Assembly: GCA_001880285.1 (NCBI GenBank)
Contig: CP016269.1
Location: 806,001-870,000, forward strand
Direction: 5' to 3'
From: Flavobacteriaceae bacterium UJ101
GTDB taxonomy: Bacteria > Bacteroidota > Bacteroidia > Flavobacteriales > UJ101
DNA: 64,000 nt
In this document: in pieces, positions 52,390 to 57,662 of the stretch
How the letters are laid out: each line of letters begins with the position of its first letter
Numbering within the stretch: position 1 is the first letter of the stretch
Made by a program: the position numbers and the translations under genes
The notes under the pieces: model-generated
Seen by the model: the letters and a program-made list of their open reading frames with translations, nothing else
Database searches by the model: none
Told to the model about the DNA's origin: nothing

Positions 52390-52506
52390 GATTGTTGAAA
52401 TAATTTTAACATTTAGATTAAATTAAGTATAAAATTAACATGTCGGCCTAAGGTAATTACAATCGTTTTTAGGGTAAAAGTGATACTTTTTCACTATTTT
52501 GGTTTT

Positions 52507-53412
52507 ATGAATGTATATAATGATATCAATAGTTATTATCCAAATAGTTTAAAATCTCCAAAAATAATTTATGAAGATTTCAAAATTATGAGGTTGGAAA
52601 ACTTAATAAACTCTCTTACTATAGAAGATATTGAAAAATATGAGAAACCACATAGAAGATCTTTCTTTGAAGTTTCTATTGGGAAAAAAGAATCAAACAC
52701 ACCACAAGTAACTATAGGATTAAATAAGTTTATTGGAATAGACAATAACTTAATGTTTACTTCAATGGGACAGGTATTTTCAATTGATTTTCATAATAGA
52801 AAAAAAGCAGAAAGTGGTGATGGTTATGTCATTGCTTTTAAACCATCTTTTATGATTAAAGAACGAGGTGATTTTGAGATAATGAACAGATTTCGATTTT
52901 TTAACTCCTATACATTTCCTCATTATACATTAACTTCTGAACAAATCAATACAACGAATTATCTAACACAAGTAATGTATAAGGAATATATGAATAGCGA
53001 AAAATATGCTCGTGAAATGATTATGGGGTATTTAGATGTACTTTTACATATCTTTAATCGTATTTTAAGTTTGAATACAAATGAGACTGTTTTAACATCA
53101 CATGATAGAATAGCTACTCTTTTTGAACAAGAGATATTTAAAGATGGAGTAAAACTAGCATCCATAGCAAATTATGCTTCAAGACTACATATTAGCCCTA
53201 ATTATCTATCTGAATCTGTAAAAAGGTCAACAGGTAAAAATGCTAAACAAATTTTACTAAATCATAAAATGATTATGGCAAAAAGTTTACTACAACAACG
53301 TAAAAAAAGTATCTCAGAAATAGCTTTTGAAATGGGATTTTCTGAACCTACTAATTTCACCAAATTTTTTAAACAAATGACTGGATTAACACCTAATCAA
53401 TTTAGAATATAA
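52507..53412 (+). CDS. AraC-family transcriptional regulator
   Basis: A 301-aa regulator from the ATG at 52507 (a GTG 27 bp upstream is possible). The first 190 residues are a cupin-like sensing domain (SFFEVSIGKKE, GYVIAFKPSFM). The C-terminal 100 are the double HTH: KLASIANYASRLHISPNYLSESVKRSTGKNAKQILLNHKMIMAKSLLQ and SISEIAFEMGFSEPTNFTKFFKQMTGLTPNQFR. It is divergent from the cupin-MBL pair with a 117-bp gap and is the likely regulator of it. Confidence 0.88.
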   Translation: MNVYNDINSYYPNSLKSPKIIYEDFKIMRLENLINSLTIEDIEKYEKPHRRSFFEVSIGKKESNTPQVTIGLNKFIGIDNNLMFTSMGQVFSIDFHNRKKAESGDGYVIAFKPSFMIKERGDFEIMNRFRFFNSYTFPHYTLTSEQINTTNYLTQVMYKEYMNSEKYAREMIMGYLDVLLHIFNRILSLNTNETVLTSHDRIATLFEQEIFKDGVKLASIANYASRLHISPNYLSESVKRSTGKNAKQILLNHKMIMAKSLLQQRKKSISEIAFEMGFSEPTNFTKFFKQMTGLTPNQFRI

Positions 53413-53534: not shown

Positions 53535-53559
53535 TAGTTAGGATTCCTAACTATATTTG
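53535..53559 (+). promoter_or_regulatory. palindromic operator abutting the -7 box of the CxxC island
   Basis: TAGTTAGGATTCCTAACTA (53535-53553) is a perfect 19-bp palindrome around one T. Its last two bases are the start of TATATTTG (53552-53559), the -7 box. A protein bound here would cover the -33 region. The same arrangement stands in front of the GAPDH gene at 57638-57662. Confidence 0.75.
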
Positions 53560-53601
53560 TATTGGCAATAATGCCTAAATAACTTAAAAATATAATTAAT
53601 T

Positions 53602-53835
53602 ATGAGTAAATCCATTTTTTATCATGCAGGATGCCCTGTATGTGTTAGTGCAGAACATGACATCGTTGATCTAGTAGGAAGAGACCATGTTGAAATTGTA
53701 AATATTGGAGTTGTCCGTGATCGTATTAATGAAGCAGAAAAAGCTGGGATCAAATCCGTACCAGCATTAGTAACCCCAACAGGAAATGTATTACATATTA
53801 ACTTTGGAGCTTCTATGGAAGAGGTAAAAGGATAG
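53602..53835 (+). CDS. small thioredoxin-like protein (CPVC)
   Basis: A 77-aa protein with a truncated thioredoxin/glutaredoxin fold: SIFYHAGCPVCVSAEHDIVDLV puts the redox pair at Cys11 and Cys14 after strand 1, and IKSVPALVTPTGNVLHINFG supplies the cis-Pro loop (VPAL). It should exchange dithiols in the cytoplasm. First gene after the 19-bp palindrome promoter. No signal peptide. Confidence 0.85.
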   Translation: MSKSIFYHAGCPVCVSAEHDIVDLVGRDHVEIVNIGVVRDRINEAEKAGIKSVPALVTPTGNVLHINFGASMEEVKG

Positions 53836-53853
53836 ATATTTTTTTAATTCATA

Positions 53854-53872
53854 TAGTTAGGATTACTAATCT
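53854..53872 (+). promoter_or_regulatory. second copy of the island palindrome
   Basis: TAGTTAGGATTACTAATCT keeps the left half and core of the operator but the right half is degenerate. It lies 22 bp upstream of the secreted-protein gene; no TATATTTG box follows directly. It may be an internal, weaker site. Confidence 0.6.
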
Positions 53873-53893
53873 TTAAACAAAAAACGTAAACAA

Positions 53894-54622
53894 ATGAAAG
53901 CATACATAGTAACATTAGCCATAACTTTTGGTTTTTTGACAAAATCATATGCTCAAAAAGAAACATCATATAATAATAATGATTTTCAAATAATAAAAGT
54001 AAAAGTTTCACATCTACCTGATTTGAGTGTAAGTGTTTGGGAAATTAAGGTTAAAGGAGAGGCTGGAAAAACTACGCCAATACCTAATGGAGCATTAGAT
54101 GGAGCTCCTGTTTTAGGATATGTATTCCCAACATCATTAAAACCAACAGATGTAGGTTTTAGTGATACTAAAGGTATCCTTGCCATGGCATTAACTTCTC
54201 ACCCTGATTTTGATGATACACCTTTATGGGATGAAGACATGAACGGAGATCCTAAAAATATTGGAGATGGTGTTTTTTGGCATCCACATTGGGTAGTCTT
54301 ACACGAAGACAAACGTGTACCAGGTGGATTAGCAGTAAAACAATTCAAAAAAATAGATAATGTAATACTACCTACTACAAACCCTGGTATGCCAATGTAT
54401 ATGGATTCTCCTGGTTTCTCTGTAACAACAAAAGGTAAAAGTATTAAAGTAGTAATTCCTGATTACAGAATTAATAATCAAACTTCTTTTAACTATGATG
54501 GTGTTGCCGCATATATGATTGTTAACACCAGCAAAGAAAATAAACCTATGCTTGGTGTTTATGATGTATATAGTATAGCAAGTGGTGATTTATCACTTCC
54601 ATATATAGTCAAAAAAAAGTAA
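53894..54622 (+). CDS. unrecognised secreted protein of the CxxC island
   Basis: A 242-aa protein with a signal peptide (VTLAITFGFLTKSYAQ, cleavage about 20). The mature part is strand-rich: IIKVKVSHLPDLSVSVWEIKVKGEAGK, GAPVLGYVFPTSLKPTDVGF, GILAMALTSHPDFDDTPLWDEDMNGD, then DGVFWHPHWVVLHEDKRVPGGLAVKQF. The HPHW and nearby His/Asp residues could bind metal. It has no cysteine. I cannot assign a family. It is preceded by the second palindrome copy and followed by a strong hairpin. Confidence 0.65.
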   Translation: MKAYIVTLAITFGFLTKSYAQKETSYNNNDFQIIKVKVSHLPDLSVSVWEIKVKGEAGKTTPIPNGALDGAPVLGYVFPTSLKPTDVGFSDTKGILAMALTSHPDFDDTPLWDEDMNGDPKNIGDGVFWHPHWVVLHEDKRVPGGLAVKQFKKIDNVILPTTNPGMPMYMDSPGFSVTTKGKSIKVVIPDYRINNQTSFNYDGVAAYMIVNTSKENKPMLGVYDVYSIASGDLSLPYIVKKK

Positions 54623-54634
54623 TAATTTAAAAAG

Positions 54635-54669
54635 ACTAACACTTAATCATTTATTGATTAAGTGTTAGT
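54635..54669 (+). terminator. strong hairpin after the secreted-protein gene
   Basis: Perfect 15-bp stem ACTAACACTTAATCA / TGATTAAGTGTTAGT with a 5-nt loop, 12 bp past the stop. No strong T-tract follows, so it may attenuate or protect the upstream message rather than fully stop transcription before DUF2024. Confidence 0.65.
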
Positions 54670-54708
54670 AACATAAATAAAAAAATTAAATTTTAAAAAC
54701 ACCTTATT

Positions 54709-54969
54709 ATGAAAGTTTCAGTTTACGATACTTATGTACCAAAAGACAACCATACAACCATGCATTTTGATATCTTAGTTGAAGAAGGTACTTCGGAAAA
54801 AGACGTATACAACTATGGAAAAAAATATTTATCGGAAAGAGGAATTCCTAATTTTCAATTAACAACTAAAGAATGTAATTTTTGTCACATGGAAACAGCT
54901 CCTGATACGGTTGAAAAAGAAATTAAAAAATCAGGATACTTTATTATTGAGATGGAGAATTGCAACTAA
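54709..54969 (+). CDS. DUF2024 protein with CxxC motif
   Basis: An 86-aa protein of the DUF2024 family: MKVSVYDTYVPKDNHTTMHFDILVEEGTSEKDVYNYGKKYL, then LTTKECNFCHME with Cys56 and Cys59 followed by His60, and a C-terminal strand FIIEMENCN. The CxxCH could bind zinc or take part in thiol chemistry. Function of the family is unknown. It lies between two thioredoxin-fold genes. Confidence 0.85.
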   Translation: MKVSVYDTYVPKDNHTTMHFDILVEEGTSEKDVYNYGKKYLSERGIPNFQLTTKECNFCHMETAPDTVEKEIKKSGYFIIEMENCN

Positions 54970-55016
54970 TCATAGCCACTAAAATATAAATCAAAATGTA
55001 AGAATATTCAAACCAT

Positions 55017-55634
55017 ATGAAAAAATTAGAATTACATTTTAATCAAGAACTACAGGGAAGATTTGAATTAGGTAAACTCAATCTTCTCTTAGTTTTTCAA
55101 GTTAATTGCCCTGGATGTTTCTCTTATGCACTTCCTCTTTTCAATCAATTATATAAACAATTTAATAAAGATGTTTCATTTTTAGCATTATCAACAGCTT
55201 TTGAAGATTTTGATAAGAATACAAATGAAAACACAAAAAAAATGATTGAAAATGGAGTTCTAATTGGAGAAACAAAAAAATTCATGAATAATCAAGGATT
55301 TGTTAAACTACCGTATTCATTAGATTTCCCAATAGCAATGGATAAATTCAGGTTCAATGACTCTAAAGATTTAGATTATGCAGTACATGCTATTTGCAAT
55401 ATAAATCCAAATTATGTACTTTGGTCACAATTTGAAAAGGAGGCACTCCAAAACAAAGTACGAAATTATTTAGAATCATTGGATAAGATAGCTTTAACAT
55501 TCACTCTTAATCAATTAAGAGGTACTCCTAGCTTTGTTTTATTCAACGCTAAATATGAAATACTAAATAATTGGTTTGGACATGTACCCTACGAACAAAT
55601 AGCTGAAAGACTTAAATTAGATAATGTATTTTAA
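55017..55634 (+). CDS. thioredoxin-fold protein (CPGC)
   Basis: A 205-aa TlpA/AhpC-like protein without a signal peptide. Strand LNLLLVFQVNCPGCFSYALPLFNQLY places the pair at Cys31 and Cys34; an insertion of about 100 residues follows, and LRGTPSFVLFNAKYEILNNWFG supplies the cis-Pro. The cytoplasmic location and long insertion distinguish it from cytochrome-maturation TlpA. Third CxxC protein of the island. Confidence 0.8.
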   Translation: MKKLELHFNQELQGRFELGKLNLLLVFQVNCPGCFSYALPLFNQLYKQFNKDVSFLALSTAFEDFDKNTNENTKKMIENGVLIGETKKFMNNQGFVKLPYSLDFPIAMDKFRFNDSKDLDYAVHAICNINPNYVLWSQFEKEALQNKVRNYLESLDKIALTFTLNQLRGTPSFVLFNAKYEILNNWFGHVPYEQIAERLKLDNVF

Positions 55635-55661
55635 AATAGCCTTTCATAATATAAATTGTAC

Positions 55662-56555
55662 ATGAAACCCATATTTTTTATAGAAAGAGAATCGAAGAAA
55701 GTTAAAAAAGAAACACCTCCAGGAGAATGGTTCTTACAATTTTTATACTATTCTCCTTTAGGAAAACTTCCTCTATATTTAATCGTTAAAAGAAAGTTTT
55801 TAACGATAATTTATGGACACTTCATGAAATCTAAATTATCAAAACGTATTATTCTAAAATTCATAGAAAATTATAATATTAATACTGAAGAACTTGAGAA
55901 AAATACACATGAGTTCAATTCGTTTAATGACTTTTTTTGTAGAAAATTAAAATCTCATTCAAGAGAAATACAACAAGGCTTAGTTTCACCAGCCGATGGA
56001 AAAGTTTTAGCCTATCCTACTATTGAAGAGCTTCATAATTTCTATATCAAAGGGCTTCCATTTAATCTAAGTAATTTTTTAAAAAATGAACAGCTTGCTG
56101 AAAAATTTAAAGAGTCAATATTTATAATTATTCGGTTAGCAACTGATGATTATCATCGTTTTCATTTTCCTTATACTGGAATCCCATCTAAATCTACCAA
56201 TATTAAAGGATATTATTATTCTGTATCTCGTTATGCCGTAATCCCTAATTTGACAAAAATATTTTGTGAGAACAAAAGAAAATACACTATTCTTTCTACA
56301 AAAGGGCTTGATGATATTTTGATTTGTCCTATTGGTGCTACCATGGTTGGGAGTATTTCTGATACATATATTCCAAATTCACCTATTAAAAAAGGGGATG
56401 AAATGGGATATTTTAGCTTTGGAGGCTCCACTATCGTATTATTAGTGAACAAAAAGAAATTAATGATAGCTGATGACATTTTAACCAATACCCAACAAGG
56501 ATTAGAGACCTCTATAAAAATGGGAGAACAAATTGGAAATCTTATCACCAAATAA
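55662..56555 (+). CDS. phosphatidylserine decarboxylase family protein
   Basis: A 297-aa protein from the ATG at 55662 (a TTG 6 bp upstream is less likely). It has LVSPADGKVLAYP (proteolytic/catalytic Asp region), RLATDDYHRFHFPYTG (catalytic His block) and the self-cleavage site FSFGGSTIVLLV, where the Ser becomes the pyruvoyl group. It would make phosphatidylethanolamine or act on a related serine lipid. Odd company: last gene of a unit otherwise made of thiol-redox proteins, 11 bp from the converging GAPDH stop. Confidence 0.85.
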   Translation: MKPIFFIERESKKVKKETPPGEWFLQFLYYSPLGKLPLYLIVKRKFLTIIYGHFMKSKLSKRIILKFIENYNINTEELEKNTHEFNSFNDFFCRKLKSHSREIQQGLVSPADGKVLAYPTIEELHNFYIKGLPFNLSNFLKNEQLAEKFKESIFIIIRLATDDYHRFHFPYTGIPSKSTNIKGYYYSVSRYAVIPNLTKIFCENKRKYTILSTKGLDDILICPIGATMVGSISDTYIPNSPIKKGDEMGYFSFGGSTIVLLVNKKKLMIADDILTNTQQGLETSIKMGEQIGNLITK

Positions 56556-56566
56556 ACTTCCTTCCA

Positions 56567-57556
56567 TTAAAGACTTATAATCTCTCTTATCATTTGATTG
56601 GTAAACCCCCACTCATTATCATACCAAGTTAATACTTTTATAAGATTACCATCTACAACTTTAGTCAATGATAAATCTGCTATAGCGCCGTATGGACTTT
56701 TAATAATATCTGTTGATACTAAAGGTTCATAAGAAGCTTTTAGAACTTTCACATAACGATTCGTTTGAGCTTCCTCTTCTATAATATTATTTATTTCACC
56801 AACAGAAGTGTTTCGACTAGTAACCATAGTAATATCTGAAATTGACCCTACTGTTATGGGAACTCTGATAGCCATACCATCAAATTTCCCTTCATATTCT
56901 GGCATAGCTTTTATGGTTGCCTTTGCTGCTCCAGTAGTAGTTGGAATAAGGTTATTCATTCCTGATCGCCCCATTCTAAAGTTATTTCTAGAGGGAGCAT
57001 CTACTATAGAATTAGAACTTGTCCCAGAATGAACTGTTGTCATAATTGCTTTTTCAATTCCAATTCGTCTTCCTATTATCTCTATTACTGGACTTATATT
57101 ATTGGTTGTACAACTCGCACACGAAAAAATATTGGTTTTACCATCTTCAGAATTTACACCGTGTACAACTGTAGGAACCTCAGGACTTTTTGAAGGTCCA
57201 GAAAGAACAACCGTTTTGGCTCCTGCTTTTATATGTTTTACTGAATCCTCATAATGAGTAAAAATTCCAGTGCTTTCAATTACAATATCTATCTCTAATT
57301 CTTCCCAAGGTAAATTCTCAGGATTTTTTTCATTTATAAATCGAATACGTTTACCATCTATAATTAAATATTCTTTTTCTACTTTTACTTCATTTTCAAA
57401 AACACCATGGATACTATCGTATTTTAAAAGATATACTATATTTTCAATTGTAGCAATATCATTAACCGCTATCAATTCAAGTTCAGGTGTATTCACTATT
57501 ATTTTTAAAGCTGCACGCCCTATTCGTCCCATTCCATTTATTGCAATTCGCTTCAT
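56567..57556 (-). CDS. divergent glyceraldehyde-3-phosphate dehydrogenase with CASC active site
   Basis: A 329-aa GAPDH. NAD site INGMGRIGRAALK and Asp33 (VNDI, NAD rather than NADP preference), catalytic Cys149 and His176 (TTVH), Arg231 (MAIRVPI) and the C-terminal SWYDNE-type motif (TWYDNEWGFTNQM) are present. The active-site stretch is SCASCTTNN rather than SNASCTTNC, placing Cys146 three residues before Cys149. The segment after His176 (HSGTSSNSIVDAPS) also departs from the usual HAYTxxQ. A stress-inducible paralogue seems more likely than the glycolytic enzyme. Confidence 0.85.
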   Translation of the reverse strand: MKRIAINGMGRIGRAALKIIVNTPELELIAVNDIATIENIVYLLKYDSIHGVFENEVKVEKEYLIIDGKRIRFINEKNPENLPWEELEIDIVIESTGIFTHYEDSVKHIKAGAKTVVLSGPSKSPEVPTVVHGVNSEDGKTNIFSCASCTTNNISPVIEIIGRRIGIEKAIMTTVHSGTSSNSIVDAPSRNNFRMGRSGMNNLIPTTTGAAKATIKAMPEYEGKFDGMAIRVPITVGSISDITMVTSRNTSVGEINNIIEEEAQTNRYVKVLKASYEPLVSTDIIKSPYGAIADLSLTKVVDGNLIKVLTWYDNEWGFTNQMIREIISL

Positions 57557-57637
57557 ACTATTTCTTTTTAAATTATTAGACTTTATTATCTTATAAAGGT
57601 TGTCGTTTCCACAACTAAAACCATCTTAATTACAATA

Positions 57638-57662
57638 CAAATATAGTTAGGATTACTAACAT
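57638..57662 (-). promoter_or_regulatory. palindromic operator and -7 box of the GAPDH gene
   Basis: On the minus strand GTTAGTAATCCTAAC is followed at once by TATATTTG (57645 down to 57638), then TATTG. The same arrangement, GTTAGGATTCCTAAC-TATATTTGTATTG, precedes the thioredoxin-like gene at 53.5 kb. Conservation of operator plus promoter geometry implies control by one regulator. Confidence 0.75.

Follow-up and report, generated by a model that had tools for sequence, protein, structure and literature searches.

A six-gene island of Flavobacteriaceae bacterium UJ101 shares its operator with a four-cysteine MarR regulator and is a putative branch of a regulon against reactive nitrogen species

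We analysed a 64,000-nucleotide window (C1:806001-870000) of the single-contig 3.07-Mb genome of Flavobacteriaceae bacterium UJ101, which is the sole member of its family among the sampled genomes and belongs to an order that includes Flavobacteriaceae-type relatives. The window holds an island of six genes, five on the forward strand (53602-56555) and a sixth, for a glyceraldehyde-3-phosphate dehydrogenase (GAPDH), on the reverse strand (56567-57556), the two units converging with 11 nt between them, just as an earlier note on this DNA had placed and oriented them. The same palindrome, GTTAGGATTNCTAAC, stands at both outer promoters of the island, which that note had also seen, and again ahead of the second gene, where it had been missed. 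The likely regulator, too, went unnoticed, and it is the centre of the system: a MarR-type protein with four cysteines in its C-terminal tail, encoded by a second operon elsewhere in the genome. The features of the island, in order of position, are as follows.

53537..53551, forward strand: operator 1, GTTAGGATTCCTAAC, 10/10 arm matches, before the mini-thioredoxin gene
53552..53559, forward strand: TATATTTG, which fits the -7 box TAnnTTTG and directly abuts operator 1
53602..53835, forward strand: mini-thioredoxin, 77 residues, motif HAGCPVC; core module member
53856..53870, forward strand: operator 2, GTTAGGATTACTAAT, 9/10 arm matches (one mismatch), before the SecP gene
53894..54622, forward strand: SecP, a secreted protein of 242 residues, kept beside MarR in Bacteroidota, Deinococcota and Alphaproteobacteria
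54635..54669, no strand assigned: hairpin with a 15-bp stem, about -20 kcal/mol, in the SecP-DUF2024 gap; possible attenuator or terminator
54709..54969, forward strand: DUF2024 protein (PF09630), motif CNFC; core module member
55017..55634, forward strand: TlpA/redoxin-like cytoplasmic protein, motif CPGC; module member in five Aquimarina genomes and a Nostoc plasmid cluster
55656..56555, forward strand: phosphatidylserine decarboxylase (PSD), PRK00723-like, second copy, 21 nt after the TlpA-like gene; apparent lineage-specific addition
56567..57556, reverse strand: GAPDH from a minor clade marked by SCASCTTNN; the genome has three genes of the GAPDH family; apparent lineage-specific addition
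57638..57645, reverse strand: TATATTTG, contiguous with operator 3; -7 box of the promoter ahead of GAPDH
57646..57660, reverse strand: operator 3, GTTAGTAATCCTAAC on that strand, 10/10 arm matches, before the GAPDH gene

Unit 1 thus runs from the mini-thioredoxin through SecP, DUF2024 and the TlpA-like protein to the PSD, with intergenic gaps of 58, 86, 47 and 21 nt, and unit 2 is the GAPDH gene alone. Operator 2 has no clear -7 box behind it and a strong hairpin intervenes between SecP and DUF2024, so that unit 1 may or may not be a single transcript. The arms of the hairpin end in CTAAC/GTTAG, similar to the operator half-sites.

A scan of the window for the palindrome, allowing up to two mismatches, returned five strand-matches at three places against 0.48 expected, and none of 100 shuffles reached five. 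Over the whole genome the count alone is unremarkable, because the exact core, TTAGGATTNCTAA, occurs four times and a reversed control pattern three times. What is notable is the placement: the island holds three of the sites, and the remaining one, at a distance of 1.7 Mb, immediately precedes a second DUF2024 gene. The -7 box of Bacteroidota promoters has the consensus TAnnTTTG; since the operator abuts this box, a protein bound to it would occlude the promoter, and the regulator is therefore most likely a repressor. Genome-wide operator scans of eight genomes added no further regulon genes: the extra sites examined outside the module (L045, L047, L060, L065 and L066, with L050 at a contig end) are regarded as chance, because they lie inside open reading frames (ORFs) or are not placed ahead of a gene.

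The second operon, together with the likely regulator that it encodes, means that the island is not self-contained, contrary to what had first been proposed. It comprises a mini-thioredoxin 58% identical to that of the island, DUF2024, the MarR-type regulator (C1:2574359-2574979), YggS and a class-I glutamine amidotransferase (GATase), and its mini-thioredoxin gene is preceded by a diverged palindrome, GTTAGCACTCCTTAC, and then TATATTTG. The regulator carries a MarR domain (PF01047) at 34.3 bits, against a cut-off of 24.6, and has no Rrf2 domain among its Pfam matches; a Foldseek search with the model of a close relative recovered MepR, MexR and similar structures. In 40 aligned regulators the only invariant cysteines are the four of the C-terminal tail, spaced C-x2-C-(about 11)-C-(about 15)-C. 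The model of this tail is of low confidence (pLDDT about 56-70), and its cysteines may form an Fe-S or zinc site or be free thiols. It is very probable that island and MarR operon are parts of a single regulon and that the four-cysteine MarR represses the island, acting in trans through the shared palindrome.

Operator placement, linkage to the regulator and conservation could all be observed directly in other genomes. In other genera of the order, the mini-thioredoxin, SecP, DUF2024 and MarR occur together; the palindrome precedes the mini-thioredoxin, recurs ahead of SecP or DUF2024 and in many cases stands ahead of MarR as well. Named genomes were scanned with a mini-thioredoxin profile, giving at least 571 confirmed matches, and 80 loci were kept. 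MarR stands around 71 of these 80, DUF2024 around 54 (53 plus one closer to the second copy), SecP around 26, YggS around 20 and a TlpA-like protein around five, all in Aquimarina; PSD and GAPDH are found at none. Co-occurrence under the palindrome in other Bacteroidota, the check suggested in the earlier note for all six families, thus holds for the mini-thioredoxin, SecP and DUF2024, more weakly for the TlpA-like protein, and fails for PSD and GAPDH (0/80). The palindrome itself, with at least 9/10 arm bases and no more than 150 nt upstream, precedes 69 of the 80 mini-thioredoxin genes, mostly starting 57-66 nt before the ATG with a nearly invariant TATATTTG behind it; among the 776 upstream regions that served as controls at these loci, two have such a site. 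In a table compiled by hand from the 80 loci, an operator (at least 8/10 arms) lies before the first gene at all 71 loci with MarR and at four of the nine without it (Fisher p = 5e-6); in three of those four the MarR gene could lie elsewhere, as it does for the island, and the fourth is a short contig. Beyond the phylum, a tailed MarR adjoins the mini-thioredoxin and/or SecP in Alphaproteobacteria, Gammaproteobacteria, Cyanobacteria and Deinococcota, with a different palindrome, GTATCGANTCGATAC, in the gammaproteobacterial intergenic regions, and the five DUF2024 genes found among 72,556 plasmids, in five records, each have this MarR nearby. The regulon is widespread in bacteria and apparently undescribed.

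The module also varies among these loci. In Pseudomonas aeruginosa (L080 6325-7832, NZ_CP131792.1), and likewise in L078 and L079, MarR is divergent from the mini-thioredoxin, DUF2024 and Rof, a Rho-binding antiterminator gene, with an intergenic palindrome of the GTATCGANTCGATAC type; in P. aeruginosa the cluster lies downstream of purM/purN and is therefore probably of chromosomal type. It probably corresponds to PA0939-PA0942, numbers under which the open-access literature yielded nothing useful. At L039-L042, L157, L161 and L167 (Chryseobacterium included), a mini-thioredoxin gene with neither operator nor MarR follows two genes, one for a cupin and one that is dihydrodipicolinate-synthase-like, and a MocR regulator is nearby in L157, L160, L161, L167 and others. 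In Agrobacterium fabrum (L084 5428-10754), MocR is divergent from the mini-thioredoxin, GATase, serine hydroxymethyltransferase (SHMT), YggS and pyridoxal kinase. At 17 of the 80 loci there is a small AAA ATPase of about 240 residues, often between or beside MarR and YggS (L140 11258-11983 is an example), and L005 2223-2924 has one too; on a Spirosoma plasmid (L068 7160-12609) a thiamine biosynthesis cluster follows a DUF2024-SecP-MarR module.

Three of the four CxxC motifs originally counted in the island stand as such, namely CPVC of the mini-thioredoxin, CNFC of DUF2024 and CPGC of the TlpA-like protein. The fourth, CASC of the GAPDH, is no independent redox motif, because it forms part of the catalytic signature SCASCTTN common to orthologues. 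The mini-thioredoxin stays below the NCBIfam cut-offs of two thioredoxin-family models that it weakly resembles (MTH895/ArsE, 16.4 bits against 62; MJ0307, 19.5 against 92.75), and the island DUF2024 protein is a clear PF09630 family member that matches the solved structure 2HFQ with E 2e-19. SecP has no Pfam or NCBIfam match, and its structure model (mean pLDDT 76) gave no Foldseek match at E <= 0.001; the best VIA-align score, Z 6.2, went to immunoglobulin-type beta-sandwiches, in a range that is uninformative. In the same uninformative range, the longest alignment (139 residues aligned, Z 5.8) was to the ethylbenzene dehydrogenase gamma subunit (2ivf_C). SecP also contains a conserved MPMYMDSPG stretch, and a haem-binding role for the protein is conceivable.

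The genome holds three GAPDH-family genes above the cut-off and two PSD genes, the island having one extra copy of each. For the island GAPDH, relatives are present in 6 of 395 genomes, UJ101 among them, and those of the other five are 63-76% identical, all with SCASCTTNN and none with the operator; relatives of the island PSD, a rare subtype, occur in eight, again including UJ101, and outside UJ101 are without the operator. Within the island, the GAPDH gene has an operator of its own and the PSD gene has none, relying on the upstream promoter. Their absence from the 80 loci and their operator-less relatives rule both out as conserved members of the module, and they appear to be extra copies recruited in this lineage. 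The GAPDH scores 301 bits against NF033735, the ArsJ-associated model with a cut-off of 450, and there is no transporter in the island. At two other loci (L181 and L183), relatives of the island GAPDH adjoin a gene assigned by eye as pyridoxamine-5'-phosphate-oxidase-like, with no operator. In Cytobacillus a PSD lies near a mini-thioredoxin, MOSC and YggS, a hint only, as it is 30% identical to the island PSD.

The nature of the stress was approached through the neighbours of the regulator. Of the 395 sampled genomes of the phylum, 28 carry this MarR, and the genes within 1.5 kb of it were read. They include the mini-thioredoxin at 12 loci, DUF2024 at 11 (one fused) and SecP at seven, together with a truncated globin at three, protoglobin at five and cytochrome P460 at four. 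Each of the six protoglobin genes in the 28 genomes has the MarR gene no more than about 2 kb away, and the palindrome stands ahead of protoglobin in L192, L200 and L205 and ahead of P460 in L204 and L207. The fused gene (L195 869-1498) joins DUF2024 to a bacterial globin in a protein of 210 residues and lies directly before the MarR gene. At the 80 mini-thioredoxin loci, genes for RIC/ScdA, hemerythrin, truncated globin, HTHP and Rrf2 make up 23 of 853 ORFs near the module and 4 of 796 far from it (p = 2.7e-4). Plasmid clusters contain flavohaemoglobin (hmpA) with Rrf2, protoglobin, HTHP and MOSC in Hymenobacter; a globin, MOSC, an AurF N-oxygenase, GATase and a homologue of the TlpA-like protein in Nostoc; a P460-family protein in Thermus; truncated haemoglobin and MOSC in Pararhizobium; and nirK, probable nor genes and MOSC in Phaeobacter. 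Both MOSC proteins tested contain the YiiM 3-alpha domain.

Several of these families have been linked to nitrogen compounds. YcbX and YiiM of Escherichia coli detoxify N-hydroxylated bases and hydroxylamine (PMC3831636), P460 proteins oxidize hydroxylamine while cytochromes c'-beta, to which they are related, are putative binders of nitric oxide (NO) (PMC12352625, PMC10318465, PMC11928373), and the AurF-type DnfA binds and oxidizes hydroxylamine (PMC9478400). For MarR in combination with protoglobin, or with MOSC and Fe-S, the open-access literature gave nothing relevant. Thaumarchaeota are a group known for ammonia oxidation. DUF2024 is present in 29 of 30 Thaumarchaeota (PMC6393860), in the one paper of the open-access literature found to mention the family. 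Among the thiol, reactive-sulfur, nitrosative and metal stresses put forward in the earlier note, the neighbourhoods favour the nitrosative, taken broadly to include hydroxylamine, over the others, and they suggest that the signal of the regulon is probably reactive nitrogen species, that is, hydroxylamine and/or NO. Of the two, hydroxylamine is somewhat favoured, because it explains MOSC, P460, AurF and the neighbours related to pyridoxal phosphate (PLP), namely YggS, MocR, pyridoxal kinase and SHMT.

A number of observations weigh against a nitrogen-oxide regulon of this design. Operator 2 has no clear -7 box; a globin, hemerythrin, RIC, HTHP or Rrf2 gene is nearby in just 11 of the 80 Bacteroidota module loci; and copper nitrite reductase (NirK) does not co-occur with MarR (5/28 genomes with it, 59/367 without). 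YggS, the AAA ATPase, MocR and pyridoxal kinase have no direct role towards NO and would suit a toxicant that attacks PLP, and catalase and thiol peroxidase (Tpx) are present in some clusters, so that peroxide fits too. The linkage of regulator and operator to proteins that handle NO or hydroxylamine is found in relatives, not in the two loci of UJ101 itself.

The same MarR regulon and operator could instead answer to an oxidant or thiol-reactive electrophile, such as peroxide, quinone or hypochlorite, in the manner of OhrR or MgrA-type repressors, with the globins, P460 and HTHP serving as peroxidases. The module is indeed dominated by CxxC proteins, catalase, Tpx or a peroxidase-related enzyme is nearby in some clusters, and the matches of the helix-turn-helix domain, by sequence and by fold, include MarR proteins that sense oxidants. 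We nevertheless consider such an inducer unlikely, as the protoglobin, P460, RIC, hmpA, AurF and nirK/nor neighbours, like the globin-DUF2024 fusion, point more specifically to nitrogen oxides. It is less likely still that hydroxylamine is the cell's own intermediate, and not an external toxin, in a nitrogen metabolism of the dnf (Dirammox) type, linked to PLP and with endogenous N-hydroxylation: AurF is absent from the identified proteins of UJ101's two loci and from the recurrent Bacteroidota neighbours, even though the Nostoc cluster combines AurF with GATase, the UJ101 second operon includes GATase and YggS, and the Agrobacterium cluster of MocR, thioredoxin, GATase, SHMT, YggS and pyridoxal kinase has four gene types in common with dnfT1RT2ABCD (PMC9136411). 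A metal or reactive-sulfur response, with the four-cysteine tail as a metal sensor, could draw on the invariance of those cysteines and on the weak likenesses, both below cut-off, of the mini-thioredoxin to MTH895/ArsE and of the GAPDH to the ArsJ-associated model; with no arsenic, copper or zinc transport gene recognised among the recurrent neighbours, and with sulfur genes in single plasmid clusters only, we think it decidedly improbable. That the island is self-contained under the AraC-type gene directly upstream (52480-53412) is scarcely credible, AraC-like ORFs (about 27-30% identity) being present at 8 of the 80 module loci as against 71 for MarR, which tracks with the operator.

On balance, the island is probably one branch of a trans-acting four-cysteine MarR regulon that would serve as a derepressible defence against hydroxylamine and/or NO. 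In the mechanism that we infer, from repression and inducer to cofactor and the role of each enzyme, a MarR dimer in unstressed cells would sit on GTTAGGAWTNCTAAC beside the -7 box and block transcription, and the MarR operon, with the second mini-thioredoxin and DUF2024, would be autoregulated. On exposure to hydroxylamine and/or NO, the cysteine site, be it thiols, a bound metal or an Fe-S centre, would change and the repressor would be released, and the induced products would remove reactive nitrogen species and repair the damage. The mini-thioredoxin, DUF2024 and the TlpA-like protein may act as thiol reductants and SecP outside the cytoplasm, and the second GAPDH and second PSD may replace enzymes that are attacked at an active-site thiol or pyruvoyl group.

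These predictions would give orphan families present in many phyla, DUF2024, the HAGCPVC mini-thioredoxin and SecP, a hypothesis of function and a regulator. They also call for a MarR-type sensor of hydroxylamine or NO, and the operator is defined sharply enough for a direct binding test. Known regulators in this role belong mainly to Rrf2, Crp/Fnr, NorR and MocR. For the last of these, a MocR-like DnfR is named in the reference list of PMC9478400. More tentatively, the four-cysteine MarR could be a nitrogen-oxide sensor of a new class, in which a MarR scaffold bears an Fe-S or zinc-thiolate centre and whose range takes in Bacteroidota, Proteobacteria, Cyanobacteria and Deinococcota. Its core targets, the mini-thioredoxin and DUF2024, together with SecP, could make up a pathway, so far undescribed, for the destruction of hydroxylamine or nitrosated thiols, which would give DUF2024 its first function.

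Compared with known MarR repressors (OhrR, MexR, MgrA and MepR), the UJ101-type regulator has the winged-helix domain, a palindromic operator that overlaps the promoter and, as predicted here, autoregulation, but it differs from them in its extra four-cysteine C-terminal tail and in having nitrogen-oxide and thiol genes as neighbours where they have efflux pumps or ohr. With the NO regulon of NsrR, a member of Rrf2, it has in common such types of neighbour as RIC/ScdA, truncated globin and hmpA, whereas the regulator is of MarR type and the Rrf2 gene beside MarR in some loci is a separate gene. Like dnfT1RT2ABCD of Alcaligenes, some relatives of the module have MocR, SHMT, pyridoxal kinase, GATase and an AurF-type N-oxygenase; unlike it, the two UJ101 loci have no AurF among their identified proteins and are under a MarR and not a MocR regulator, and the module includes the mini-thioredoxin, DUF2024 and SecP, which are not part of dnf as described. 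The DUF2024 family (PF09630), finally, is here joined to a regulon and to a globin fusion.

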